Shown one piece after another: positions 2,118 to 39,470 of a DNA stretch of 64,000 bases (its first letter is position 1; each line of letters begins with the position of its first letter). The notes beneath the pieces are model-generated. The model searched no databases, had not been told where the DNA came from, and worked only from the letters and a program-made list of their open reading frames with translations. Origin of the DNA: Prosthecobacter debontii (GTDB taxonomy: Bacteria; Verrucomicrobiota; Verrucomicrobiia; Verrucomicrobiales; Verrucomicrobiaceae). The translations under genes were made by a program, and so were the position numbers. The stretch lies in assembly GCA_945869695.1 (NCBI GenBank), contig CAMBPV010000001.1, positions 1 through 64,000 on the forward strand, given 5' to 3'.

Positions 2118-5100
2118 ATGGCAACCAAAGGCAACAAGAGCATCAAGTACGTTTATAATTTCGGAGCAGGTAAGGCAGATGGTGACGGAACCATGAAAGC
2201 CTTGTTGGGAGGCAAAGGAGCCAACCTCGCTGAAATGAGCCGCATCGGCCTCCCCGTCCCTCCTGGATTCACAGTCACGACTGAAGTCTGCACTTATTTT
2301 TACGACCACAAGAAGACCTACCCTGCCGCCATGGAAGCTCAGATGCGCGCAGGCATCGCTTCGATGGAGAAGATCATGAACAGCAAGTTCGGTGATGCGA
2401 AAGGACTCCCCCTTCTCGTTGCTGTCCGTTCCGGTGCACGTGATTCCATGCCAGGCATGATGGACACGATTCTGAACCTTGGTCTGAATGACGAAACGGT
2501 TCTTTCACTCGCCAAGGTGACCAACAACGAGCGTTTCGCCTGGGACTGCTACCGCCGCTTCGTTCAAATGTATGGCGACGTGGTGCTCGGCGTCCAAAAG
2601 CGCGAGGGAGAAGATCACGAACCGTTTGAGGTCGTCATCGAAACCTTCAAGCACGAGCGTTACCATGCAGATATTGAAGATGCCAAGATGACCGCTGACG
2701 ACCAGAAGGAACTGGTGAAGCGTTTCAAGAAGCTCGTGAAAGACCGCACCGGTCACTCCTTCCCGAGCGACCCATGGGCTCAACTCCTTGGTGCTGCAGG
2801 TGCTGTGTTCGGAAGCTGGATGAACGATCGTGCTATTGTGTACCGTCGTAAATACAACATCCCCGCTGAATGGGGCACCGCTGTAAACGTGCAGGCAATG
2901 GTTTACGGAAACACTGGCGAAACCTCGGGCTCGGGCGTGGCCTTCACCCGCAATCCAGCCAATGGCGTCAATGAATTCTACGGTGAGTTCCTGATCAACG
3001 CTCAAGGTGAGGACGTCGTCGCAGGCGTCCGCACACCAGAACCCGTCGCACAGCTGGAAAAAGAAATGCCGAAGCCTTTTGCCGAACTGATGAAGGTTCG
3101 CAAAACTTTGGAGAAACATTTCAAGGATGTTCAAGACGTTGAGTTCACCATTCAGGAGGGCAAGCTGTTCATGCTTCAGACCCGGAATGGAAAACGCACC
3201 GCTATGGCTGCGCTGAAATTCAGCATGGACATGGTGAAAGAAAAATTGATCGACTGGGAGACGGCCGTCCTCCGCAATCCTGCCGACCAGTTGGACCAAT
3301 TGCTCGCTCCGGTTTTCGATCTCGCAGATTTGAAGAAGGCAAAAGCTCTCGCGACTGGCCTGCCGGCCGGTCCAGGCGCAGCTTCTGGCCGAGTCTACCT
3401 CAATGCTGACCGCGCCGTCATTGCTGAAGGCAAAGGTGAGAAAGTTCTCCTCGTCCGGAATGAAACCAGCCCCGAAGATCTTCGTGGCATGATCGCCGCA
3501 GAAGGTATCCTTACAGCCAAAGGCGGTGTGTCCTCACACGCCGCACTCGTTGCCCGTCAGATGGGCAAGGTTTGCATCTGCGGTGCGGCGGCGTTGGACA
3601 TCAACTACGACAAGAAGACTGTTACCGTATCAGGCCAGACCTTCAAGGAAGGTGACTTCATGTCCATCGATGGAACGAGCGGTATCGTCTACGGTGGCGA
3701 ACTGAAAACAGCTCCTTCCGAGATCATCACCGGAATTCTTCACGGGGATAAGGCTGCACTCGCTACTGAGAAACTGAAAGGCTTCAAGCAACTCATGGAC
3801 TGGTGCGCTAAGGCAACCAAGCTCCAAGTCCGCACCAATGCCGACAATCCAGAGCAGACCGAAAACGCGATTGCTTTCGGCGCACAAGGCATCGGACTCA
3901 CCCGCACAGAGCACATGTTCTTTGAAGGTGACCGCATCGACGCCATGCGTGAGATGATCCTCGCCACCACGGAGAAAGATCGTCGTGCCGCACTTGGCAA
4001 GTTGCTTCCTTACCAGAGAGAGGACTTCACTGGAATCTTCAAGGCACTCAAGGGATTGCCTGCGACGATCCGTCTTCTTGACCCACCGCTTCATGAGTTC
4101 CTCCCTCACACAGAGGCTCAGCAGAAAGATCTTTCCGCGAAGACTGGCATCAGTGTGGATAAAATCCAAGCTCGTGTGAATTCACTGCATGAGTTCAATC
4201 CAATGCTCGGACATCGCGGTTGCCGTCTCGGTATCGCGTATCCTGAGATCACTGAAATGCAGGCGCGCGCAATCTTTGAGGCCGCCGCTGATGTTTCCAA
4301 AAAAGGCATCAAGGTGAAACCCGAAGTGATGATTCCTCTGGTTGGCTTCAAGAAAGAACTCGACCTTCAGGTCGCAATCGTGCATAATGTTGCGAAGCAG
4401 GTGATGCAGGAAAAGAAAGTTAAGCTCGACTACCTCGTCGGCACGATGATTGAAGTGCCGCGCGGAGCACTGACGGCAGATGAGATTGCTCAGACTGCGC
4501 AGTTCTTTAGCTTCGGAACTAACGATCTCACTCAAACCGCGCTCGGCATCAGTCGTGACGACATGGGTAACTTCCTCCTTCCTTATACGGAGAACGAGAT
4601 CTTCAAGAAGAACCCCTTCGCCACACTCGATCAAACCGGCGTCGGCCAGCTGATGGAGATCGCCATCGATAAGGGTCGCCGCACCAATCCAGGCATTAAG
4701 CTTGGGATCTGCGGTGAACACGGTGGTGACCCGGAGAGCGTCAAGTTCTGTCACCGCCTAGGCCTCAGCTACGTCAGCTGCAGCCCATACCGAGTTCCCG
4801 TCGCCCGCCTGGCCGCTGCTCAAGCCGCCATCGAGGAGAAGCGCCGCGCTGCAGCGGCCCCAACAAATGTCCGAGGAAACAGCGCAGCCAAGTCGGCTGC
4901 CCCAAAAGCAACCGCTAAGAGCGCTGCTTCACCGGCAAAAAAAACAAACGCAACCAACAAAACAACAAGGAGTAATACCATGGCTAAAAAAGCAGCAGCG
5001 AAGAAAGCACCAGCAAAGAAGGCCCCAGCAAAAAAGGCAGTCGCCAAGAAAGCCCCTGCTAAGAAGGCAGTAGCTAAGAAGGCTCCTGCTAAGAAGGCCC

Positions 5101-5129
5101 CAGCCAAGAAGGCTGCCAAGAAGAAATAG
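2118..5129 (+). CDS. ppdK: Pyruvate, phosphate dikinase with histone-H1-like C-terminal tail
   Basis: A 1003-residue pyruvate phosphate dikinase (pyruvate + ATP + Pi to and from PEP + AMP + PPi), a reversible enzyme of glycolysis/gluconeogenesis. The N-terminal nucleotide-binding domain begins GAGKADGDG...[10 protein letters not shown]. The phosphohistidine swivel motif [12 protein letters not shown] places the catalytic His at 474. The PEP/pyruvate domain ends with [10 protein letters not shown] (Cys865) and [16 protein letters not shown]. The family fold finishes near residue 904, giving the usual length of about 900. Beyond it come about 50 residues of Ala/Lys/Thr/Ser linker and then 49 residues of KKAPA-type repeats like bacterial H1 (HC1/HC2-type) tails. 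That tail has its own in-frame Met955 behind a strong SD, so it may also be made separately. A strong terminator follows. The enzyme call is certain; the role of the tail is unknown. Confidence 0.97.
4967..4972 (+). promoter_or_regulatory. Internal Shine-Dalgarno AAGGAG inside ppdK
   Basis: A perfect AAGGAG sits 7 bases before an in-frame ATG (4980) within the ppdK reading frame. It is one of the best ribosome-binding sites in this window, better than that of ppdK itself, and would direct independent translation of the lysine-rich tail. Confidence 0.55.
4980..5129 (+). CDS. Candidate nested histone-H1-like small protein (49 aa), same frame as ppdK tail
   Basis: In-frame internal start at ppdK codon 955, preceded by AAGGAG with optimal spacing. 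The product would be 49 residues of only Met, Ala, Lys, Pro and Val, built from KKAPA and KKAVA units, and extremely basic. It resembles stand-alone bacterial histone-H1-like nucleoid proteins such as chlamydial HC1/HC2 tails. Two readings are possible: a free DNA-binding protein made from an internal site, or a once-separate downstream H1-like gene now fused to ppdK. Sequence alone cannot tell whether both products are made. Confidence 0.45.
4983..5126 (+). repeat. Tandem [10 protein letters not shown]-coding repeat
   Basis: About nine near-tandem 15-base units, each encoding Lys-Lys-Ala-(Pro/Val)-Ala or a close variant. Mixed AAA/AAG and GCA/GCC/GCT codons show the array has diverged at synonymous sites while the peptide pattern is kept. 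Confidence 0.85.
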
Positions 5130-5229: not shown

Positions 5230-6132
5230 CTACTTGGCGATCCGGTAGAGATGCGCGGGCAACCTTTCGCTGGTGCACCAGAAATGAGCACCATCGCGGC
5301 TGTAACACACCGCCTCGCCTTGAGGCATCAACGGCGTTTCGATCCGGATGGGCTTGAGCGCCAGAGCCTCACCCAGCGTCTGGTTTCCATGCACCGACCA
5401 CTCATATAAACTGGAGTAACTCATCACGACCACCCGATCCCCCTCGGGCGAGAAACATGCGGCCGTCGAGCGGCAATTGTCGATCGGACGCTTGCCACTT
5501 CTGGTCAATGGCGGGAGTCTAAAATTCCCCAGGTGCGTTAACTGCATGACGGATTGGGACGATAGCTTGATCGGAAAAGCGTAAACCCCGCATTGACCAT
5601 CATCTGTCTTTGTGATGATGAAAAGTTGTCCTGATTTCGGATGGCAAAGAAGAGACTCCGCATTGTGTCGCCCATCAGGATAACTCGCCCGAAAGATCTT
5701 CACGCCACCAACCTCGCCTTCGACCACCTCCTTTCCACTCGCTTTCACAGCAGGCTCCTCAATCTGATAAATCTGCAAGTCGCCACGAATGCCTAAATTA
5801 TCTCCGATATCGCCAATATAGAGCACAGGCACACCTGCATCACTGATCCCAGATGCCATGTCCTCCCAATCGAAATTGAATGCGCCGCTCAGCGTGAAAC
5901 GCCCGCGCACTGAACCCTTTTCATTCAATGCGAAAACGAATGGACCGTCCCCTGAGTCATTGTGCGTCCACAAAATTCCAGGCGTTCTCTGACTCAACGC
6001 AATCCCCGAGCTTTCATTCAACCGTGGATCATCCAGTGCCAGCGGCGAACTACTCACAGGTTCCTGCGCGAAGCAAGCCAGGCATGAGCAAACGACCAGC
6101 CCAAACAAAACAAAAGGCGTGAGTGCGTGCAT
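5230..6132 (-). CDS. Secreted protein of unknown function, propeller-like
   Basis: A 300-residue protein with a clear N-terminal signal peptide (residues 1-22, ending CFAQ). It contains a WTHNDSGDGPFVFALNEKG motif near residues 54-73 and an FDWEDMA motif. These resemble proteins with esterase-like/SdiA-regulated-type propellers in which acidic residues bind metal or phosphate, but the match is by eye only. The ATG lies 6 bases after the amidase stop, so it is probably the last gene of the ABC transporter-amidase-unknown operon on the minus strand. No lipobox or membrane anchor beyond the signal is seen. Confidence 0.7.
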   Translation of the reverse strand: MHALTPFVLFGLVVCSCLACFAQEPVSSSPLALDDPRLNESSGIALSQRTPGILWTHNDSGDGPFVFALNEKGSVRGRFTLSGAFNFDWEDMASGISDAGVPVLYIGDIGDNLGIRGDLQIYQIEEPAVKASGKEVVEGEVGGVKIFRASYPDGRHNAESLLCHPKSGQLFIITKTDDGQCGVYAFPIKLSSQSVMQLTHLGNFRLPPLTRSGKRPIDNCRSTAACFSPEGDRVVVMSYSSLYEWSVHGNQTLGEALALKPIRIETPLMPQGEAVCYSRDGAHFWCTSERLPAHLYRIAK

Positions 6133-6138
6133 CGTAAC

Positions 6139-6849
6139 TTAGCCCAAGGGTTTAACTGGCCCCGGAATGATCCGCTGATAATGCATCTTCACCCGACTGA
6201 GAAACCACTGCCATTTCTTTCCGGGTCGACCATTGTCCATGAGGAAGTGCGGGCAATTTTTGTGAGGTTGGCTGATGTAAGGACTGATTCTCGGCCAATG
6301 ATAATGAGGCACCACATGATTGAGCGGAATGCCGTAGGTATACATCAGGTAGGCGGACAACCGTGCAGTCCTGTCGATCGTCCAGGATAAATCATTGCCC
6401 TTGTGTTCACACATCTCGATTCCGATGCTGTAGTTATTTCCCGGCCCGTCAAAGTCAGCGTGCTCCCCCTGCTCTCTGCACGGGAGGTGTTGAATCGCCA
6501 CATCCTGCTGCACCGTGAAATGCCACGTTAAGTAGCCGATTCGGTTACCCCCTTTTCTTTGTGTCGCGCGGAGGGCTCCCCTCTTCAGGGCCAAAGCGTG
6601 CTGATAGGCATTGCCGGTGTAATTCTGCGTGCTGTGGACTGTGATGTAACGCGCCCGCATCGGCCGATAGTAGCGCCGTCCATACTTCCCAGAGGCAATT
6701 AGATCCGGTCTCACGTTACACTCTGCCAATAACTGCAATGGAGTCACCTGCCCTAACTGTCCCACGGATCCGGTCAGGGAAGAATTGTTCTGACAGGAAC
6801 AAAGCAGCCCGATAAGAGCAGTGAGGATGACGTGACGAAGAATGTTCAT
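6139..6849 (-). CDS. N-acetylmuramoyl-L-alanine amidase (amidase_2 type), lipoprotein
   Basis: I chose the ATG at 6849 rather than an upstream TTG (6930) because it begins a lipoprotein signal (MNILRHVILTALIGLLCSC, lipobox LCSC) and gives 236 residues. The mature part matches zinc-dependent amidase_2 enzymes that cleave the amide between MurNAc and L-Ala. It has YITVHST with the first zinc His, WHFTV, a central GNNYSIGIEMCEH segment, and the late His/Cys-Pro-His motif HKNCPHFL. It should act in the periplasm on peptidoglycan. It lies between the ABC transporter gene (84 bases upstream) and the 300-residue secreted protein, suggesting a cell-envelope operon. The enzyme class is well supported; the substrate (own wall or recycled fragments) is not known. 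Confidence 0.85.
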   Translation of the reverse strand: MNILRHVILTALIGLLCSCQNNSSLTGSVGQLGQVTPLQLLAECNVRPDLIASGKYGRRYYRPMRARYITVHSTQNYTGNAYQHALALKRGALRATQRKGGNRIGYLTWHFTVQQDVAIQHLPCREQGEHADFDGPGNNYSIGIEMCEHKGNDLSWTIDRTARLSAYLMYTYGIPLNHVVPHYHWPRISPYISQPHKNCPHFLMDNGRPGKKWQWFLSRVKMHYQRIIPGPVKPLG

Positions 6850-19100: not shown

Positions 19101-22100
19101 GCGCCCGACTTCCTCCAGCAGCATTGCCTTCGAAGACAGACCTGCTGGCACGAATGATCGCGTCTGGTGCGTGAATCCGGACAATGACAGCGTGGCAGTC
19201 TTCGATGCCGTTACTCGGGCGCGAGCCGCCGAGATCAATGTGGGCACCGCACCTCGCGCTCTTGCAATTGCACCCGACGGTCGTGTCTGGGTCTCCAATG
19301 TTGAAAGCAGCACCATCAGCATCATCAACCCATCCACACTGACAGTTGTTCAGACTCTCACCCTCGCTCGCGCGGCACGTCCATTCGGCATCGCTTTCGA
19401 TCCCGACGGAACCGATGGGTGGGTGGCCTGTGAAGGGACAGGACTTCTGCTTCGGATGAATCCAACCACTGGAACCCAATCCGCCAGCCTCAATGTGGGT
19501 CTCAATGCAAGACACCTTTCGGTCACCGCCAATAGTTCCCGAGTGCTGGTGTCACGGTTTATCACGCCTCCTTTACCCGGCGAAAGCACAGCCACCATCA
19601 ACAACACGGACCAAACCGGAGGCGAGGTGATCAGCGTGCTCACCAGCACACTTGCCATCGAGAAAACAACCATTCTCACCCACAGCACCCGCGCAGACTC
19701 GATCACAACCGGCCGAGGCATTCCAAACTACCTTGGCCCTGCAGTGATCTCACCCGATGGACTGACGGCGTGGGTTCCCTCGAAACAAGACAACATCAAA
19801 CGCGGCATGCTGAGAGATGGCTCTCAACTCACGCACGATCAGACGGTTCGCAGTGTCGCTAGCCGAATCGTCATCACAGGCGGCATTGCAGCCAACACAG
19901 ACGATATGCTTGGCCGAGTTGATTTTGACAATGCGGGTATCGCTAGCAATGGAACCTTTGAACGAACGGGCCTCTACTTTTTCACGGCACTCGAGGGCAG
20001 CCGGGAAATCGGAGTGGTGGATGTCTGGGGCAAAAAGGAGATCAAACGCTTTTCGGCGGGGCGCGCCCCACAGGCTGTCGTCACCTCTCCCGATGGCCGC
20101 ACTGTTTATGCTCATAACTTCATGGACCGCACGATCACCGTGCATGATGTCGGCCCGTTGTTGGATGGGGCTGATGCAACCCCCACTCTGACGGCCACAT
20201 TGAACTGCGTCACCACTGAGCGCTTATCCGCCCCCGTTCTACTCGGGAAACAGCATTTCTACGACGCAACAGACTCCCGAATCGCATTCCAACAATACAT
20301 CTCCTGCGCCTCCTGTCACAATGACGGCGCTCAAGATGGGCGCACTTGGGACTTCACCGGATTTGGTGAAGGACTCCGGAACACGATCACGCTGCGCGGT
20401 CACGGCGGCACCGCACACGGCCCCCTTCATTGGACGGGAAACTTCGATGAAGTGCAGGACTTTGAGAATCAAATTCGAAATCTCAATCTCGGCACCGGTC
20501 TGATCAGCGGCGGAAATCCCCATCCCCCGATGGGCACCGCCAATGCCGGTCGCAGCGCTGATCTCGATGCACTCGCCGCTTATGTGACCTCCCTTAGCTC
20601 ACAAGACATCAGTCCATTCCGCAGCACAAATGGCACGCTCACGACGGCCGCAGTTGCAGGTAAATCGGTCTTCGAGAACACAAATTGTGCCCAGTGTCAC
20701 TCCGGCCCTGCATTTACCAATAGCTCTCCCAATGTGGCGGCCAATATCGGCACGATCAAACCGACCACCGGCAATCGGCTCGGCACCTCGCTCACGGGAT
20801 TAGACGTTCCGACGTTACGCGGCCTCTGGGCGACAGGGCCCTATCTTCACGATGGTTCCGCCGCGACGCTGGCTGCAGCCGTTCAGGCCCATCAAGGCGT
20901 GAACTTAAATGCAACCGATCTGAGTAATCTCGTTTCCTACCTCCAGCAGATCGATGGCGGAGAAGTGTCAGCTCCCGTTTTGGCCGCACCGGCCATTACG
21001 CTCACAGGTCCGACCTCGGCACCCGGCGCTTTTGATGTGACCCTTAGTTCAACGCAAATCGTCACAGGCCTCACAGCCAGTGAATTTGTGCTGTCCAATG
21101 GCTCAGCCACGGCACTCAATGGATCAGGGGCGAGTTATACGCTGAGAATCACGCCAACCACTCCAGGGCCAGTTTCCGTCTCCCTTCCAGCAGGACGTTG
21201 CTTCAATGTGGCAAACATCGGCAACATCGCCTCAAACTCTTTGAGCATCACTTTAGTGAGCGGCGCACTGGTCCTCACGAGCTCAGATGTCGGACCCGTC
21301 ATCGTTCCCGGAACCACGTCTGCCAGCAACGGCACTTACACTCTGACTGCCGCGGGTGAAGACATCTACTTCAATGAAGACGGACTCCGTTTTGCCTTCC
21401 AGCAAGTCACTGGCGACGGAGAAATCATTGCGCGTGTCACCAGCCAGACTTTGACCAATGAGTGGGCCAAAGCAGGTGTCATGATTCGCGAAAACCTATC
21501 AGGGGGATCACGCCATGTCACCGCGTTCACGACACCCATTGCGGCTGGAAACGGTTTCGGAATGGTGTGGAGACCCACAGCTAACGCCGCGACGGACTAT
21601 GCGCGCGGCCCGAATCTGAATGCTGCCCCAAATAATTGGGTCAGGCTGGTGCGCGCGGGAACGACGATTACTGCCTATGCTTCAGCCAATGGCACATCAT
21701 GGACAGAGATTAGCTCTGCCACACTCGCCGCCCTGCCGAGCTCTGTTTACTTCGGGCTAGCCCTTTCAGCTGGGGACAATTACTCAGGAGCAGTCGGCAC
21801 CGGGACGTTTGATAACGTCAGCATCAATGGCGCACTCAACCCCACGCCGCCATCAGTGACTCTTGTGGCTTCACCGACGACGGTCAGCGGAGCCTTCACG
21901 GTTACCGCGACGTTCACCCAGAATATCACGGGTCTGAGTTCATCCGATTTCATCATTACCAATGGCACCGCATCCGCCATCTCGGGGAGCGGCACCCAAT
22001 ACTCGGTCACCATCACACCAAACGTTGCAGGAGCTGTTTCAATCACTCTCCCCGCAGGTTCTGTCACCAATGCAGCAGGTCTCGGAAACATCGCTTCCAA

Positions 22101-31616: not shown

Positions 31617-32489
31617 TCAAGGCACCGGCTCACCCGAGCCGGGATAGACCCACCGCACAACCTTCCCATCGCGAATGTGAGCCTGAGCGTGGGCTTCCAT
31701 CGGTCCGCAGAAAACAATGGTGTCATAGTGCACATCGATCACCCAGGTGGGTCTGCCTTCGGTCGTTACCAATTGTGGAGTCCCCATTCGCTTCACCTTC
31801 TTCGGCGTGATGTCGGTGACGTCCCCCGCATTCATACTGGCCAAGAGAATAGGATAACTGCCATTCCCAGCCCTCACGGGCTTGCCACTTTCATCGATCG
31901 CACCCGCGGGCACTTCAACACCGACCGCATTCGGTTTGGTCTGCTGATTTTTCTCCCACTGTTGCCTCAAGGTCTCCACCCGCCACGCCACCCACTTTTG
32001 GTAAGGCTCCGCAAACTGCGACTTCAGATCCGTTTCACTGACGCGCACGTAGCCCCGAGCAGTCGAAGTAGGCACTGGAGCCAGCGTCACGACACCGTTT
32101 TCGCATCCCAGCGCCGTTACCATTCCACCCGCCGCCATCCGCGAGAAACCCGCAGACATCTTGAATTCGACATCCCGCATTAACTTCACCACCCGTGGAA
32201 ACGCTGACAGCGGAATGACCGTCCAGTTCTTCGTCAAGACCTCCAAAGACTCAATCGCGGGCGGCTCAAACTTCGGCGCGCTTGCCCTCGCGACCTCGGT
32301 GTTGACCGGGGCAGTCAATTGACCTCCCAAGGAACCTTGCTTCTCGACAATACCCTTCTCCGCAGCATCACCTCGAATCCCATCAGGCCCCCTTTCGAAG
32401 ACCATCCTTTGCGACTTAGGTGCACCCAAATAGTCGTAGGCCAAAAATGCGATTCCTAAAATTAGCCAGGTGTAAATCAGTGCCTTCAT
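31617..32489 (-). CDS. Membrane-anchored protein of unknown function
   Basis: A 290-residue protein with one N-terminal membrane segment (about residues 5-20) and a soluble, probably periplasmic body containing QQWEKNQQTKPN and a C-terminal HYDTIVFCGPMEAHAQAHIRDGKVVRWVYPGSGEPVP. No family recognised. Its ATG overlaps the stop of the ceramidase/PVC fusion gene as ATGA, so the two are translationally coupled and likely work together. It converges on the RidA-family gene with 5 bases between stops. Confidence 0.7.
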   Translation of the reverse strand: MKALIYTWLILGIAFLAYDYLGAPKSQRMVFERGPDGIRGDAAEKGIVEKQGSLGGQLTAPVNTEVARASAPKFEPPAIESLEVLTKNWTVIPLSAFPRVVKLMRDVEFKMSAGFSRMAAGGMVTALGCENGVVTLAPVPTSTARGYVRVSETDLKSQFAEPYQKWVAWRVETLRQQWEKNQQTKPNAVGVEVPAGAIDESGKPVRAGNGSYPILLASMNAGDVTDITPKKVKRMGTPQLVTTEGRPTWVIDVHYDTIVFCGPMEAHAQAHIRDGKVVRWVYPGSGEPVP

Positions 32490-35400
32490 TTCAACCCCGG
32501 ACTTTGCAGATAGGCGATCAAATCCGCAAACGATTGCGGTGTCATCGCCGCCTCAAGGCCTTCGGGCATCAAGGATGTTCCCGCACTCTTCAAAGAGGCC
32601 ACATCACTGCGCAGCACCGACTTCGTCACATTCCCCGCCATCTTCAGCGTCAGGCTCGCGCTCGTTTCGGTGGCGATGACACCGTAGAGCTGCTCGCCGC
32701 TCTTCAGGGTGCAGTGGTAGGCCATGAAGCCGGGCTCGATGATCGCGCTGGGGTCGAGAATGGAGTTGAGGAGCTTTTCGGCGTCGTGCTGCGCCACGCT
32801 GCGCAGATCCGGGCCGAGTTCGAGGCCCACGCCGTCGAGTTTGTGGCAACTGATGCACACACTCGCGAAAACGGTCTTCCCGCGTGTCGCATCGCCTCGG
32901 AGCTTCAACGCCGGTTTGAACTTCTCCACCACCGCGGTGCGCGAAGCGCTCGTGGAGTCAGCGAAGACCTTCTCCGCCAGGTCGGCGATGTTTTTCTTCG
33001 GATGCTTCATCAACCGCGCCCGCATCGCCGCGTCCGCGGATTTGGCTTCGGGACGTTTCAGCAGCGCCAGCGTCCAGGCGTCGTTCGAGAGAAGCGTTTC
33101 GAGGATCTGCACGCGCAGCGCCGGTGTGCGCTGGTCCCAGCCTTCGAGCAAAAACTGCTCGCCACCCTGAGGTTGCAGCTTCGAGACGAGCCGCAGCACC
33201 TCCGCGTTGCCCGTCTTCGCCCATAGCTCCGGCAATAGTGCTTTGACGCGTTCCCGATGCTCGCGATCCGAGGCCAGCAAGGTCAGCGATTCCATCGTCG
33301 GAGCCGTTTGGATCGACTCCGCGGCCTGTTGCAGCCTCGCGGCCATTTGATCGACCGCCGCCCGTGCCTTCGCATCCGTGACCTGTTTCGCGAAAGCGGC
33401 CAGAGAGAGGTTTTTCTCATCCAAGACGGTCAGCAGCTCCTCCAGGCCCTTTTGCGCATCCATCCGCGTCACAAGCGCCGCGATGGCTTTTTCGTTCTTC
33501 GTCGCCAAAGCGCAGCGCAGGAGCATCGCGAAGGATTTGGCATCCGCACGAGCACAAACTCGCTCCAAATGCGGCAGCACCGAACTCAACGCCGCGCCTT
33601 GCAGCGGCGAACCCGGCTCCGCGCTGTTCAGCACCTCCGCGAGCAAATCTCCGGCCCACTCGAACTTCAGCTCGCCAAGCGTGCAGGCCAGTTGAAGGCG
33701 CACCTTGGCATCTTGATCAAGCAGTCGCGCCTCCAGCGCCATTTGGAGCAATCGAACATCATCACCCTTCCAGTCAATCTTCTCAGCCATTTGAAGGGCT
33801 TGCTCGCGAATGTGCCACTGCTCACCGTAGTCATCATTCAAAAGGACAATGCAATCAGAGGCGCTGAGTTTGCCCAATGAAAGAGCAGTCCATGCATCTG
33901 CCATCGTGCCAATACCTGATGCAACTGGGTTAAAAGCTGGAGCCTTGCCATCCCATAACGCCCTCATTTGCGCTTTGTCCCTGCACCAGCCATTCGCGCT
34001 TGCGAAAGTGGCTTCGGCTTTAGCCGAATCATTCGCCCCAGATCGAGCTGAAGCTCGAACTACTTTCCAAATCCGTCCCTTGTCATCCCCTTCGCGGTAA
34101 TGCGGCAGAAGCTCTTCTTTGCCATTCTGCGGCAGCCACTGCGGGTGCTCGATCATGTAGCGATACATATCCGCCACCCACAGTGCGCCGTCGGGGCCGG
34201 TGCGGACCATGACGGGGCGGCACCAGCGGTCTTCGCTGGCGAGGAAGTCCATCTTGGACTCGGCGGGATCGCGTACGGCTTTGAAGGTGACGCCGTCGTC
34301 TTCGAGGAGGTGATGTTGCACGACGTTGTGGAAGGGCTCGCAGGTGAAGGCGTGCGTTTTGCCGTCCTTGAAGAGCTTCACATCGCGATACACCTCGATG
34401 CCGCAGGCGCTGGTGAAGCGTCCGGCCTGGTCGAAGCTGTGGAAGCGCTTCTCCATGCTGCTGGCGGGATACACGGGCGGATTGCGCGGGAAGAGCTGAT
34501 GAATCGGGTCCGGCGGGATGACGTGCGGATTGCGGCGCAGGTAGTGATCCTGCAAAACATAGTGCCAGAGCGGGAAACTGTTCTGCACGCCGAACCAGTG
34601 GCCCCAGTCATCGCGGGCGCGGCCGAACTGCGAGGGGCCGGTCTGCGGATCAAACTCGCCGGTGTCGGGTTTGAAGCGGAAATCGCGGCTGCCGAGGTCG
34701 ATCTTCTCGCCGGTGAGCTTGCACTCGATCTGCGTGCCTTTGTTGTAGCCGCCGTGATGCGCGCCCGCGGCGCAATACACCCAGCCGTCCATGCCCCAGC
34801 GAAGGCCGTTCACGCGGAGCTGCTGATTGCCGGTGCTGAAGCCGGTGTAGAGCACTTTCTTCGTGCAATCGGGCGAAATGAAAAAGATGTCCGGCGCGGC
34901 GGTGACGATGACGCCTTCACGCCAGGTCAAGATGCCGGTGGGATAGCTCAAGTCGCTGACGATGACGTGGCGCTTGTCGTAGCGACCGTCGCTGTCCGTG
35001 TCCTCCAGCCGCACGACGCGTCCGCCAGCCGTGCCATTGCCATCCATGCCGAGCGGGTAGTCCGCCATCTCGATGACCCACAGGCGACCCTGCTCATCCC
35101 AATCAAACGCGACCGGATCGAGCACCACCGGCTCCGCCGCGACGAGTTCGATCCGGTAACCCTCGCGCACATGCCACTTCTTCGCCGACTCTTCCGGCGA
35201 GAGCGGTTGCGAGGCCATTTCGACCTTCGTCGCTGGCGCAGGTGCGGCGGGTTTTTCCAAACCGGCGACCTCCACCTTCTCAAACTCACCTTCCAGCGGC
35301 GCGAAGTCATCGCAGCGTTTGCCAAAGAACAATTCCTTCGCGCCGGGAGCCGTGACGGGCAGTTCGGCGTCGATCTCTACCTTGCCATTGAGTGTCACCT

Positions 35401-37819
35401 TCACCCGCGAGCCAATGCGTTCCAGCTTCACGTCATTCCATGTCCCAGGCTCGATGACCGTCGTGCCGCGCACGATTTGCGCGGCCGCATTGCCATTGAA
35501 GACGAACAACCGGCCCGGCGACGAGTCCTTAAAGTTCCCGCCAATGCCGAGGTGATCGCCCGGTGCTTGATGATCGCCCTTCGGCCCGCGCGAGATGAGG
35601 TAGGCGGTCACGGCGCTGACGTTATTGGCCTTCGTGTTCTTGAAGCGCATCGACGCAGACCAGTTCTCATGCGCCATCAGCAAGGCGGAGCTCTGCACCT
35701 GCGCCCGCTTCTTCCGCTCCGCCCGCGAAACCGCCCGCTTCGCATTCTCCTCGCCCACTTTCGAGATGTTCCAAAGCTTCGCGATGAGCGAAGGCTCAAT
35801 GACGCGATCCCAGATCGTGATCTCGTCGAGTCGTCCTTCGAGTTTTTGCCCCAACTCTAGCGTTTCTGGGCCACCAGATGACTCCAGTGAAAGCACGGGC
35901 TCGGGTTCTCCATCAATGTATATTTTAAGTTCCCCCTGATCCTGAACGAGCGCCGCAAAGTGCCAATCATCAGCATGTCCGATCTCAGCTGATGCTTTGT
36001 GGCCTGCGGCAACGTTCACTTGATGCCGATCATTTTGGCGAAGTATGATGTCGCCAATAAGGCTACCACTTCGATTCGATGCGCCGCTTTCATGGCCTAG
36101 CCAGAACCAAAGTGCCACGGAGAACTGACCATCAAGCTTCAGATTTGGAATTTCAAGATGTCCACCTGCGAGGTGGATCGCTCGGTTGATGTGTTTGGTG
36201 CTGCTGAATGCAGAACCGGTGAGAGCAGATTCGCTGTCGTAGCCGCGTCCACTGCCGACTCCGGGTAGATAGAAAGCATGAGGGCCAACCAGCTTCGCCA
36301 GTTGTGTCTCTTGATTGATTACGGAGATCAAAGAGCTTCCCCCTGTTTGGCCGCAGCCAAAGTGAGCCAGAGGATCAGTGGAATAGATTTCTGCCGCATA
36401 AGGCCCGGCGAGAGAATCCTGTTGGCGCTTTTTTTCGTCTGTGAGCGAAGCGATGGCTTTACTCAACTGATCCACCATTTGAGGTTCAGCTTTGACCTCA
36501 AGCCCGGCTGTTCGCGCAGGCCACGTTGTGTATCCGCCGAGTGTGTGCTGCTCAGGTGGTGGAATGTAGCCTGTGGCGCCGTTCGCTAGCTCAATGTTGA
36601 AGTGCGTTCCGAATGGCGACATCAGCCGCAGCTTCAATCCCGTGATAGCATACACCTCGTTCGGCAGCGTCGCGATACTCAGATCGCCGATGCGGATGGC
36701 TTGGAGCTTCACGGTGGTCTTTTGCCGCTCGTGGAGGATGAGCGCCTCTCTCGCATACACTTCCTCTTTGCTCTTCGGCACGTCGTTCTCGATCTTCGCG
36801 GCGATGGGGCGGGCCCAAGCGAGGCGTTTTTCGTCGGGGACGCGGTAGTTGAGCTCCATTGTCTTCTCGATCATGCCGAGCGGGGCGTGATCGACATACG
36901 TCACGGTTTGCAGGGCTTTGATCGCGCTGTCGGCGACCTCGGAGGCGTAGGTGTCGATGGTGAGGGTCTTTTTCTCCGCACCGTAGTCCATCCACATCTG
37001 GTCGCCACTGGTGCCCTGGCTCATGGCGCAGACGAAGGGGCCGTTGCCATCGCCCTGCTGGCCCATTTTCGCGGCGAGGTGACGGCAGAAGTGCCCATAG
37101 TAGTCGGCGGAGATCGGGCCGGTGCCAAAGTAGTGCTGCGAGTAGTTCGCCAGCACGCCGAGCGGTTTGCCATCGAGCGTTTCCAGTGCGATGACGCTGA
37201 GCTGCGGGTCCACCGGGCCGCTGGGGCCGACGACGTCCTTGCTGAGGTAGCCGGGGTGCATGTTCGCACGGCCCGTGGGCTGGCCGAAGGGATCGACGAC
37301 CTCCTTGCCCGGCAGGCGAATCCAGCGGCGGTTGTGCGTGTGCTCCCAGTCGTCGTAGTTGCCCCAGCCGATACGCGCCGGTTGCAGCGCCGCATTCGCC
37401 GCCACAATCGCCTCGGCAATCTTCGGCGTGAGGAATTTCGCATACACGGTGTCCTTCCGCGTGCCGAGGCAGCCCATCGCCGCCGGCGCGGAGTGCGTGT
37501 GCGTGGCGCTGACCATCATGCGATCCACCGGGATGCCGCACTGCTTTGCCGCGATGCCTTTGGCCTCATCGATGAGTGCCTGCTCCATCATGCAGGTGTC
37601 CACAATGGCGAAAGCGATCTTCATCTTGCCATCATCGAACACAAAACTGCGCACGAAGAGCTTGTCCGCGAGCTTTTCGCCTCGTCCTTCGAGAAACCCG
37701 CCCGCGATGATGCGAGGGAACTCCGTCGGCGAGATGTCCACCGTGGCCACTCCGGCGCGGAAGGTGGCCGCAGAGGCGATGGTGCTGAGAAGAGAAAGGA
37801 AAAGAAGGGCCTGCTTCAT
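32486..37819 (-). CDS. Neutral ceramidase-like/LamG/PVC-type heme protein fusion (1777 aa)
   Basis: The ATG at 37819 begins a good signal peptide; further upstream codons lie inside a palindromic repeat and are rejected. Residues about 18-450 match neutral/alkaline non-lysosomal ceramidases: zinc motif ATHTHSAP (His107, His109), NYSQHYFG, and QGTSGDQMWM near the catalytic Ser. Next are a LamG-like lectin fold (about 546-668), a DUF1080-like beta domain (about 716-851), and a PVC/Pirellula-Verrucomicrobium-type propeller (from about 886, GYRIELVAAEPVVLDP). A helical HEAT-like region follows, then a C-terminal heme domain with CISCH (1655-1659). Such PVC cytochromes are thought to be periplasmic dehydrogenases. 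A hydrolase on the front of one is unusual. Base composition changes at domain borders, and three palindromes interrupt the reading frame near 34000. Confidence 0.85.
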   Translation of the reverse strand: MKQALLFLSLLSTIASAATFRAGVATVDISPTEFPRIIAGGFLEGRGEKLADKLFVRSFVFDDGKMKIAFAIVDTCMMEQALIDEAKGIAAKQCGIPVDRMMVSATHTHSAPAAMGCLGTRKDTVYAKFLTPKIAEAIVAANAALQPARIGWGNYDDWEHTHNRRWIRLPGKEVVDPFGQPTGRANMHPGYLSKDVVGPSGPVDPQLSVIALETLDGKPLGVLANYSQHYFGTGPISADYYGHFCRHLAAKMGQQGDGNGPFVCAMSQGTSGDQMWMDYGAEKKTLTIDTYASEVADSAIKALQTVTYVDHAPLGMIEKTMELNYRVPDEKRLAWARPIAAKIENDVPKSKEEVYAREALILHERQKTTVKLQAIRIGDLSIATLPNEVYAITGLKLRLMSPFGTHFNIELANGATGYIPPPEQHTLGGYTTWPARTAGLEVKAEPQMVDQLSKAIASLTDEKKRQQDSLAGPYAAEIYSTDPLAHFGCGQTGGSSLISVINQETQLAKLVGPHAFYLPGVGSGRGYDSESALTGSAFSSTKHINRAIHLAGGHLEIPNLKLDGQFSVALWFWLGHESGASNRSGSLIGDIILRQNDRHQVNVAAGHKASAEIGHADDWHFAALVQDQGELKIYIDGEPEPVLSLESSGGPETLELGQKLEGRLDEITIWDRVIEPSLIAKLWNISKVGEENAKRAVSRAERKKRAQVQSSALLMAHENWSASMRFKNTKANNVSAVTAYLISRGPKGDHQAPGDHLGIGGNFKDSSPGRLFVFNGNAAAQIVRGTTVIEPGTWNDVKLERIGSRVKVTLNGKVEIDAELPVTAPGAKELFFGKRCDDFAPLEGEFEKVEVAGLEKPAAPAPATKVEMASQPLSPEESAKKWHVREGYRIELVAAEPVVLDPVAFDWDEQGRLWVIEMADYPLGMDGNGTAGGRVVRLEDTDSDGRYDKRHVIVSDLSYPTGILTWREGVIVTAAPDIFFISPDCTKKVLYTGFSTGNQQLRVNGLRWGMDGWVYCAAGAHHGGYNKGTQIECKLTGEKIDLGSRDFRFKPDTGEFDPQTGPSQFGRARDDWGHWFGVQNSFPLWHYVLQDHYLRRNPHVIPPDPIHQLFPRNPPVYPASSMEKRFHSFDQAGRFTSACGIEVYRDVKLFKDGKTHAFTCEPFHNVVQHHLLEDDGVTFKAVRDPAESKMDFLASEDRWCRPVMVRTGPDGALWVADMYRYMIEHPQWLPQNGKEELLPHYREGDDKGRIWKVVRASARSGANDSAKAEATFASANGWCRDKAQMRALWDGKAPAFNPVASGIGTMADAWTALSLGKLSASDCIVLLNDDYGEQWHIREQALQMAEKIDWKGDDVRLLQMALEARLLDQDAKVRLQLACTLGELKFEWAGDLLAEVLNSAEPGSPLQGAALSSVLPHLERVCARADAKSFAMLLRCALATKNEKAIAALVTRMDAQKGLEELLTVLDEKNLSLAAFAKQVTDAKARAAVDQMAARLQQAAESIQTAPTMESLTLLASDREHRERVKALLPELWAKTGNAEVLRLVSKLQPQGGEQFLLEGWDQRTPALRVQILETLLSNDAWTLALLKRPEAKSADAAMRARLMKHPKKNIADLAEKVFADSTSASRTAVVEKFKPALKLRGDATRGKTVFASVCISCHKLDGVGLELGPDLRSVAQHDAEKLLNSILDPSAIIEPGFMAYHCTLKSGEQLYGVIATETSASLTLKMAGNVTKSVLRSDVASLKSAGTSLMPEGLEAAMTPQSFADLIAYLQSPGLK
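33993..34058. repeat. Triple REP-like hairpin cluster inside the PVC fusion gene
   Basis: Three short perfect palindromes in tandem: TTCGC/GCGAA (33993-34006), TTCGGCT/AGCCGAA (34013-34028) and TCGAGCT/AGCTCGA (34043-34058). They fall in frame and encode an Ala/Ser-rich stretch between the propeller and HEAT-like regions. The pattern resembles bacterial REP/BIME elements. Confidence 0.6.
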
Positions 37820-37926
37820 GAGTGAGAGAGGAACGTTACAGATGTGGTCTTCCTTCCTTTTTGCAGAATGGCTCCCGAAAGAAACTAAAAGAGCCAAAGT
37901 CAGAACTTGAACCGATTTATTCAAAA

Positions 37927-37980
37927 ACGATTTTCCGCCTATAACGCACAAAAATTGGGTTATAGGCTGAAAATCATTTC
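37927..37980. repeat. 54-bp palindromic repeat, copy A (3' side of the ATPase gene)
   Basis: An outer arm of 19 bases ending GCCTATAAC (37927-37945), a 14-base centre, and an inner arm starting TTATAGGCT (37960-37980). The arms are inverted copies of each other. The ATPase stop codon (37974-37976) lies inside it. Copy B at 39417-39470 has the same length and spacing. Confidence 0.85.
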
Positions 37981-39380
37981 AGCAATTCATCCGCTTGAAT
38001 GATGCGGTGAAAATAGCCTGACGCCTCGACATCCTTGGAAATCGGACCATCCACGACAAGAACAGACTGGATCGATCGGCGTGGAAATTCCTGCCGGAGA
38101 AGCTCCACTTTTCGTTCGACTTCTGTGATCACGGCGCGGCCGAGCGGAGCTGTTTGACGCTTCATTTCGCAGAGCGTGATCACTTTGTCGTCACGATCAT
38201 AAGCGAGATCAATCTGCACGCCTAAGGCACCTTTGCGTGGAGCTCGGAACCAGGGACCCACATCGTAGCTAATGGCCTCAAAGCCGATCAGCCGTGCGAT
38301 TTGGTCACTGTGACGCATGCACACGAGCTCAAAGGCGCGGCCCATCCATGAACGAAAGGCTCCGGTCTGGCGGAGCGTGATGAAGAGGTCGCGCTTGCCG
38401 CCTTCGCGGATTTGTTTGAGCCGTGTGCGCATGAAGGCGTGGTAGAAACTGATCCATGGGTCGCTCAGATGGTAGCGGATGAGGCGTGTTTCGTGCCCTT
38501 TGTCGAAAGGACGCTGCGAGGAGATGAAGCCAGCTGCTTCGAGATCGTGCAGATGCTGAGAAAAGGTGCCTCCCTCGGCGATGTCCGTCTTGGTGGCGAG
38601 TTCACGGCGGCCCAGGCCATAGGGTGAGTCGGCGAGGACGCGGATGATGCGCTGGAAATCGCCGCCATTGCCAAAGTGGCTCACGAAAATGCGCTCGTAT
38701 TCTTCAACAAAGTAGCCGTCGGCGCGAAAGGCATGCTTCTCCATGCCGAGCGGGATGGATGGCGCGTCGGCGAGGAGTTCGAGGTACTTGGGGACGCCTC
38801 CAGTGAAGCATTGCGCATCGAGGATCTCGGCAAAGCCGCGCTTTGAAAGCATACGTGCCGTCTCAGTGAGGCGAAAGCCTTGCAGGTGAATGGTCAAGTC
38901 AACACGACCGTAGAACGCGCTGGACTTAAGCACCTTGGTGGTCATGAAGGAGGCAATGGATCCGCACAGGATGAGCGTGCGACCCGGTTTACGGCTCCAG
39001 TAGTTCTCCCAGACCATTTTGAGCGTGGAAACGAGCTCGCTGCGGTAATTAGCCAGCCATTGAAACTCGTCCAGCACGATGACAATGGGACGCTTCTCCA
39101 GCGCTTGGTCCAGCGCCATGAGCGCGGCCTGCCAGGTGGTGGCGTGCGGAATTTTCTTCCGGAACTGCCGGGAGGCTTGATCGAGGAAACTGGCTATTTG
39201 CACCTGCGTGGGCCGGTTTTCGAGTCCTTCGATGAAAAGCGCAGGCTGCTTGCCAATGGCCTTGCGGATCAGCGCGGTCTTTCCAATGCGACGCCGACCA
39301 TAGATCAGCGCGACTTTGGCCTCCCTCGCATCAATTGCGAGGCGCAATGCATTTACCTCTTCATTTCGCCCTACAAACAT
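37974..39380 (-). CDS. Archaeal-type ATPase with C-terminal DUF234-like nuclease domain
   Basis: I prefer ATG 39380 (468 aa, MFVGRNEEV...), matching the usual start of this family, over an upstream codon at 39404. The N-terminal STAND/AAA-like ATPase (ATPase_2 type) has Walker A GRRRIGKT (Lys34) and Walker B IVIVLDEFQW (Asp104-Glu105). A winged-helix region (YGLGRRELATKTDIAEGGTFSQHLHDLEAAGFI) follows. The C-terminal DUF234-like domain has a PD-(D/E)xK pattern: an IDL Asp, then ITLCEMKR with Glu-x-Lys. Proteins of this kind are abundant in archaea and in patches in bacteria, with unknown function and suspected mobility. The gene is bracketed by two 54-bp palindromic repeats and has no operon partner. 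Confidence 0.88.
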   Translation of the reverse strand: MFVGRNEEVNALRLAIDAREAKVALIYGRRRIGKTALIRKAIGKQPALFIEGLENRPTQVQIASFLDQASRQFRKKIPHATTWQAALMALDQALEKRPIVIVLDEFQWLANYRSELVSTLKMVWENYWSRKPGRTLILCGSIASFMTTKVLKSSAFYGRVDLTIHLQGFRLTETARMLSKRGFAEILDAQCFTGGVPKYLELLADAPSIPLGMEKHAFRADGYFVEEYERIFVSHFGNGGDFQRIIRVLADSPYGLGRRELATKTDIAEGGTFSQHLHDLEAAGFISSQRPFDKGHETRLIRYHLSDPWISFYHAFMRTRLKQIREGGKRDLFITLRQTGAFRSWMGRAFELVCMRHSDQIARLIGFEAISYDVGPWFRAPRKGALGVQIDLAYDRDDKVITLCEMKRQTAPLGRAVITEVERKVELLRQEFPRRSIQSVLVVDGPISKDVEASGYFHRIIQADELLK

Positions 39381-39416
39381 GACGAAAATTAGCTTTGAAA
39401 TCAAATAACGTCGACA

Positions 39417-39470
39417 ACGATTTTCAGCCTATAACAAAATTTTTTTGCTTTATAGGCTAATTTTCATTTC
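39417..39470. repeat. 54-bp palindromic repeat, copy B (5' side of the ATPase gene)
   Basis: The left arm matches copy A at 18 of 19 bases, the 14-base centre is unrelated, and the right arm matches at 17 of 21. It lies 36 bases upstream of the ATPase start, so it could also act as operator or promoter region. Confidence 0.85.

Follow-up and report, generated by a model that had tools for sequence, protein, structure and literature searches.

In the 64,000-nucleotide stretch of Prosthecobacter debontii DNA analyzed here (hereafter the window; positions 1 to 64,000 of contig CAMBPV010000001.1, assembly GCA_945869695.1), one gene of the PDC-S27 family lies between two palindromic direct repeats. 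With a probability that we put at roughly 0.58, this arrangement is best read as a minimal mobile cassette, in which the palindromes would be cognate sites of the encoded protein, used for autoregulation and as boundaries of the unit; such a cassette would consist of one PDC-S27 gene and its private palindrome, which most relatives carry at a single end and the closest ones (subfamily A) at both. As judged from genome comparisons, the palindrome is tied to the gene, with a fixed geometry and a variable centre, and differs between subfamilies; the palindrome-gene-palindrome unit was likewise found at unrelated sites, some of which have gene-less versions. From these comparisons we infer that the unit may mobilise itself.

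The gene occupies positions 37974 to 39380 on the reverse strand and encodes 468 amino acids counted from its ATG. That codon, at 39380 (MFVGR...), is the likely start, preferred to the TTG at 39404 given by the ORF finder because nine of nine close relatives begin there. The protein matched Pfam ATPase_2 (E 2.6e-17) and, over its full length, the PADLOC profile PDLC04984 for PDC-S27 (E 2.9e-100, residues 10–475 of 476), a profile also matched by all 45 aligned relatives. Of the ATPase_2-DUF234 name proposed in the initial annotation, the first part holds, whereas Pfam DUF234 had no match in the window protein and was matched in 15 of the 45 aligned relatives. PDC-S27 is described in PADLOC as a single-gene phage-defence candidate, an ATPase fused to a PD-(D/E)XK nuclease, and is counted 3,503 times in Archaea and 4,562 times in Bacteria (PMC12988326). 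The window protein has the same design, and both domains were found: an ATPase_2 domain of the STAND/AAA+ type (residues 2–201; 38778–39377, reverse strand) with conserved Walker A (GRRRIGK) and Walker B (LDE) motifs, and a PD-(D/E)XK nuclease-fold domain (residues 325–468; 37977–38408, reverse strand) in which QID...ExK is conserved. Columns GRRR-GK, DE and Q-D...E-K are invariant in the 45 relatives. An anti-phage role of the window gene is a candidate function.

An AlphaFold2 model built from the 45 sequences had a mean pLDDT of 93.8. Its residues 1–316 were closest in fold to two archaeal Walker-type ATPases, PABY2304 (2qen; Z 20.7, rmsd 3.6, 294 residues aligned) and SSO1545 (2fna; Z 19.8, rmsd 3.1, 287 aligned), followed by STAND proteins (CED-4, plant NLRs), Orc1/Cdc6 and TnsC. 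The 2qen and 2fna chains have about 350 residues, and the alignments stop short of the nuclease part of the window protein; a sequence search for solved relatives returned 2qen alone (E 0.0044). The C-terminal 144 residues modelled alone (pLDDT 93.8) matched EndoMS (Z 10.4), AF1548, of unknown function (Z 10.4), Can2 (Z 9.7) and McrC of McrBC (Z 8.5), entries that we take to belong to the PD-(D/E)XK family; R2 retrotransposon proteins, at Foldseek ranks 8 and 10 for this domain, were set aside as too weak a match. Fold and motif together point to a predicted nuclease. Between the two domains, about residues 240–290 (38511–38663, reverse strand) appear to resemble a winged helix, with a helix-helix-helix-strand arrangement in the model and weak profile matches (MarR_2, E 0.066; ArsR-type). 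Elsewhere in the window, a 1,777-aa ORF (32486–37821) combines neutral-ceramidase-like, laminin-G-like, DUF7133 and cytochrome c domains, and its 5' region is repeated at several positions in family genomes; a 15-bp tandem repeat at 4983–5113 is lysine/alanine-rich in translation and perhaps belongs to a basic protein tail.

The palindromes were identified from the sequence and by repeat search. Their 47-bp cores, to which no strand is assigned, lie at 37929–37975, downstream of the gene, and at 39419–39465, upstream of it, in direct orientation and 1,490 bp apart from start to start, each copy being an inverted repeat as well. In the register shared with relatives, each consists of two 17-bp arms around a 13-bp centre; the 19-14-21 division given initially describes the same structure in a register of its own. 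The downstream copy overlaps the TGA stop codon (37974–37976), is symmetric at 16 of 17 arm positions and has the centre CCAATTTTTGTGC read in gene sense. The upstream copy, whose inner arm is perfect and outer arm degenerate (12 of 17 positions symmetric), has the centre GCAAAAAAATTTT, unrelated to that of its partner, and the ATG lies 38 bp inward from it. A gene between two palindromic direct repeats, with the stop codon in one and the start just inward of the other, is what the initial annotation had claimed, and this description stands.

Searches for the repeat argued against its being a common genomic element. In the window genome (4,919,537 bases in 333 contigs), the pattern GCCTATAAC-N10-18-TTATAGGC was found at these two places only, the reversed-pattern control giving 0; a weak half-site at 21134 of the window was ruled out as a palindrome. 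A half-site census of 68 genomes of the family, allowing one mismatch, returned 62 matches against 9 for the reversed pattern: 38 at ten loci that have the gene, 5 at three solo palindromes that lack it, and 19 isolated half-sites that were counted without one-by-one inspection. The repeat was thus found both with the gene (ten loci, the window's included) and without it (three solos), the comparison that had been suggested from the window. In 16 more distant genomes searched in full with arm patterns, the ATPase gene lay within 1.5 kb at 22 of the 27 fetched matching loci, a count in which a palindrome matched on both strands counts twice. Dispersed repeats of the REP/MITE type that flank the gene by chance would account for the solo copies, which occur at two sites in three genomes, but the window genome contains just two copies and the distant matches keep close to the gene; this reading was rejected on the genome counts and is given hardly any weight.

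Nor do the palindromes behave as RNA hairpins, either terminators or processing sites. Each copy would form a long hairpin, and the centre is T-rich in most subfamily-A copies, as such a role might lead one to expect. However, a terminator scan found no G+C-rich stem followed by a T run at 37929–37975 or 39419–39465, an Rfam search returned no RNA family at the palindromes, the centre keeps its length while its sequence varies, and the palindromes are private to the gene. We regard an RNA role as improbable, and the census and terminator scan together show that the repeat is not a widespread terminator.

Matches to the window protein at E ≤ 1e-8 were present in 26 of the 68 family genomes. Subfamily-A genes are patchily distributed, being found at several sites in 10 of these genomes (the window's included), and their products are otherwise 60–77% identical to the window protein; thirteen genomes of other families gave no match to the gene. 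Synteny conserved across the order, which would have spoken for a resident gene, is not what these counts describe. All ten loci carry a palindrome at the start and another at the stop. Counting the three solos, 22 of 24 palindromes measure 47 bp and two 48 bp, with a centre of 13–14 bp whose sequence varies. The arms vary symmetrically (TT to AG at positions 8–9), and 11–17 of 17 positions are symmetric, the lowest values being those of L051 and of the window's upstream copy. As read from the sequence, an AGGA-type motif that may be the ribosome-binding site precedes the ATG in eight relatives and is contributed by the inner arm of the upstream palindrome. Control of the gene from both ends, the other possibility raised in the initial annotation, is possible, the upstream copy having this ribosome-binding-site-like sequence. 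Base 3 of the centre is A in upstream and G in downstream copies at all seven loci compared, which represent three sites (the other three of the ten fell outside the comparison); since the difference holds across sites, both copies moved together with the gene. One locus (L052, genome G072) has three palindromes, two of them upstream, and its downstream copy is closer to the outer than to the inner upstream one. In the subfamily-A phylogeny, the two members at the priA-alr site group together (100/98), and those at the hisS site and the window gene are without resolved order, for which reason no transfer between genera is claimed from the tree.

The ten members occupy six sites, named by reading the flanks and not from searches: hisS (four members), priA-alr (two), the window site, and one each for L050, L051 and L052. 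Among 38 alignments between loci at different sites, homology began at a median of -47.5 and ended at +49, which are the outer edges of the palindromes; 34 of the starts and 31 of the ends came from alignments anchored in the gene. The window locus is an exception, sharing its downstream flank with L044 and L048, where a ceramidase-type gene is common to the three; one flank of the window unit may therefore be inherited and not new. At hisS, 4 of 30 loci are filled, two (L092 and L094) have a solo palindrome and no gene, and 24 have neither in the stretch shown, with the reservation that in five of the 24 the alignment stops inside the gene, so that less of the intergenic stretch is visible. 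The third solo palindrome lies at another site, in G024, and none of the three solo-palindrome genomes contains a subfamily-A gene. No consistent target duplication was found at the hisS and priA-alr sites, and no clean gene-less priA-alr site was found among the fetched loci, their flanks being too diverged.

Two further comparisons placed the boundaries. In subfamily B, L062 has the unit at a base where L057, L065, L070 and L072 have none; the left boundary of the L062 unit is the first base of its palindrome array, the right one lies about 10 bp past the stop, where there is no repeat, and any target duplication is 3 bp at most. The four empty loci have their own copy 1.67 kb away, at a place where L062 lacks it, with a junction that is not base-exact. 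Empty sites in relatives, the sign of mobility initially called for, are thus present at hisS and at the L062 site. The other case is a pair of loci from two Bacteroidales genomes, L345 and L346, whose DNA is about 80% identical over a segment reaching from the upstream palindrome to +56/+60 beyond the stop codon; the shared segment ends just beyond the downstream palindrome and holds no other gene, and the 7-kb stretches compared gave no further match outside palindrome, gene and palindrome. Near the unit of L345, a TIR-like gene (5396–6700 of the L345 stretch in gene-sense orientation) is itself placed between 82-bp direct repeats. Taken together, the gene-less sites, the three solos and the L345/L346 pair support movement as a unit, as far as sequence comparison can tell. 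That the unit changes site upholds this part of the mobile-unit proposal of the initial annotation; that it moves itself is a further possibility.

The association was examined in the wider family with 167 ATPase loci: 47 from family genomes (window included), 80 from many phyla and 40 paralogues from three Bacteroidales genomes. Removal of four identical genes (that of L208, for instance, is identical to that of L051) left 163, and control ORFs were drawn from the same stretches. Within 250 bp upstream, a palindrome scoring at least 11 was present at 122 of 163 loci against 9 of 218 control ORFs, and one scoring at least 13 at 92 of 163 against 6 of 218; downstream, the figures at a score of at least 13 were 35 of 157 against 9 of 218. 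Since related loci are not independent, p values overstate these differences. For the loci from many phyla taken by themselves, no clear excess was seen downstream (12/76 against 5/78, Fisher p 0.075). Among cultured relatives, Emticicia oligotrophica DSM 17448 (L397), Niabella drilacis DSM 25811 (L263) and Chitinophaga filiformis DSM 527 (L235) are examples in which the upstream palindrome is clear. The upstream palindrome was below threshold at 41 of the 163 loci and, in a separate look, at L398 on a haloarchaeal plasmid. More distant relatives in the same family genomes form four further groups, each with an upstream palindrome type of its own in one to three tandem copies. Three Bacteroidales genomes (G098, G083 and G099) have 16 PDC-S27-type matches each; their paralogues are diverged and their palindromes differ from gene to gene, several having a near-identical downstream copy.

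The upstream palindrome is thus far commoner than the downstream one, and most relatives have the upstream copy only, as expected of a plain operator; this counts against the cassette, as do the loci that lack an upstream palindrome and the right end of the subfamily-B unit, which has no repeat. The prevalence of the upstream copy suits an explanation in which PDC-S27 is an autoregulated defence gene of passive mobility, gene and palindrome being spread by ordinary horizontal transfer and recombination, the palindromes being operators only, and the downstream copies being insulators or having arisen by tandem duplication and loss of the second gene copy. The overlap of the upstream copy with the ribosome-binding-site-like sequence at eight subfamily-A loci fits this, as do the standing of the family as a defence candidate and the downstream repeat of L382, which is the upstream region copied up to the start codon, as from a lost tandem copy. 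Left unexplained, however, are the stop of homology at the outer edge of the downstream palindrome, both in subfamily A and in L345/L346, and the A/G difference that separates upstream from downstream copies in the same way at different sites. We consider purely passive spread rather unlikely and retain the cassette as the preferred reading.

Whether the unit is inserted by a recognizable reaction was approached through the repeats around it. Flanking direct repeats of at least 30 bp and at least 80% identity were found at 38 of 156 loci (34 after dropping four duplicates) and at 6 of 430 controls, the six positives including two further genes of the ATPase-nuclease type and a TIR-like gene that entered the count twice. 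At the 34 non-redundant loci, 22 of the repeats are palindromic by score, that of L383 solely through its hairpin; the remaining 12 include three, at L051, L362 and L380, that are partial or degenerate copies of a palindrome. At five distant loci, a stretch of target DNA that is not palindromic is directly repeated on either side of the unit, over 42–145 bp: 110 bp at L372, the 3'-terminal part of an acetyltransferase-like gene, truncated immediately ahead of its stop codon; 145 bp at L383, a gene end with a terminator-like hairpin; about 60 bp at L251; 73 bp at L255; and 42 bp at L265, which lies outside the direct-repeat count as its repeat is more than 500 bp upstream. Other candidates were dropped: the 200-bp repeat of L059/L064 probably reflects paralogous neighbouring genes, and those of L226, L234 (30 bp), L248, L364 and L382 are probably dispersed repeats, tRNA genes or a copied upstream region. 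At L220, segments of the upstream flank recur downstream of the gene in swapped order.

These duplications are an argument for a self-transposing element of a new enzyme class, in which the ATPase-nuclease would cut the palindromes or nick the target with a long stagger and so leave duplications of 42–145 bp. It is a stronger form of the cassette reading, with which it overlaps. The duplicated gene ends at loci such as L372 and L383 favour it, together with the palindrome-bounded unit at unrelated sites and the PD-(D/E)XK fold with conserved catalytic-type residues. Against it, the duplications are seen at few loci, their lengths are very unequal and none is clear in subfamily A; the right-hand palindrome is absent from most units; and there is no sign of recent high-copy expansion, near-identical multiple copies within one genome being absent from the tables examined. 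We hold this stronger form to be doubtful. The inconsistency of target duplication (3 bp at most at L062, none clear in subfamily A, 42–145 bp at five distant loci) also weighs against the cassette itself, and on the sequences compared the lengths vary too much for a classical transposase.

Relatives were also present in mobile genomes, in 8 phage and 152 plasmid records, and 4 of 8 plasmid and phage loci (L395, L396, L397 and L399) have an upstream palindrome scoring at least 13 in the expected place. In the phage WO record MN180249 (L401, 2486–3949), the gene and two tandem palindromes, a pair read from the sequence that the score-based scan did not list, lie between gpC and gpD in the structural module; at this place, four WO records that lack the gene carry a single palindrome of that type. 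The latter could be what gene loss left behind, a target site, or an element with no relation to the unit.

For the cassette, the following scheme can be drawn. The spacing is constant while the centre varies, the arms change symmetrically and each gene has a palindrome of its own, all of which points to two half-sites read by a symmetric oligomer; the encoded ATPase is the obvious candidate binder because site and protein change together between subfamilies. The winged-helix ATPase would bind its own palindrome as such an oligomer and, at the upstream copy over the start region, would repress its own gene, an autorepression suggested by the position of that palindrome. A trigger (phage infection, should the gene indeed serve defence) might then alter the state of the ATPase and release the nuclease. 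That unit boundaries coincide with palindromes hints at another role, in the movement or maintenance of the unit: the same protein-site complexes might, at lower confidence, join the two ends and help to move it, and solo palindromes would be what remains after recombination between the direct repeats deletes the gene. Autorepression is the likelier of the two roles.

Known systems offer partial likenesses. Elements of the IS200/IS605 type have one small gene, a Y1 HUH transposase, and two subterminal palindromes, one per end and equally oriented. The subfamily-A units work alike in having such palindromes at both ends at all ten loci, a feature absent from most other subfamilies, but their sole gene encodes a STAND/AAA+ ATPase with a PD-(D/E)XK fold and no Y1 HUH transposase, and their copy number is low. 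In REP-RAYT systems a gene is likewise flanked by palindromes, with many more dispersed through the genome, whereas here the palindromes are not dispersed (two copies in 4.9 Mb, and the census of 68 genomes). Restriction-modification controllers and autoregulated toxin-antitoxin genes have a private palindrome at the start of a gene for a DNA-binding protein; the window gene resembles them in its start-region site and predicted DNA-binding domain, and differs in having a further copy over the stop codon, as the boundary of a unit that changes its location. Integron gene cassettes depend on an integrase and an attC core, GTTRRRY; set beside this core by eye only, the palindrome arms, GTTATAGGC and GTTATAGGAAG, have no apparent fit. 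Classical insertion sequences leave target duplications of constant length, unlike the units described here.

To our knowledge, PDC-S27 has no known mechanism. The open-access literature searched gave no report of PDC-S27 palindromes or of palindrome-bounded mobility, and nothing in support of the remark in the initial annotation that mobility had long been suspected for this family. The main text of the paper that describes PDC-S27 with the same two domains as the window protein is without the terms palindrom, inverted repeat or flank (PMC12988326). What is known is the gene family as a defence candidate, and the finding would be categorically new if the protein moves its own gene.

With a private palindrome for each gene, biochemical work has a defined piece of DNA to aim at, autoregulation and mobility become open to direct tests, and unit boundaries are easier to locate. 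It is a tentative possibility, and less probable than the cassette as such, that PDC-S27 genes are self-mobilising single-gene elements with their own palindromes as ends, whose widely staggered nicks could duplicate tens to more than 100 target bases. If the protein does mobilise itself, defence genes would conceal a mobile element of a new enzyme class, and phage defence would be one face of a selfish gene.
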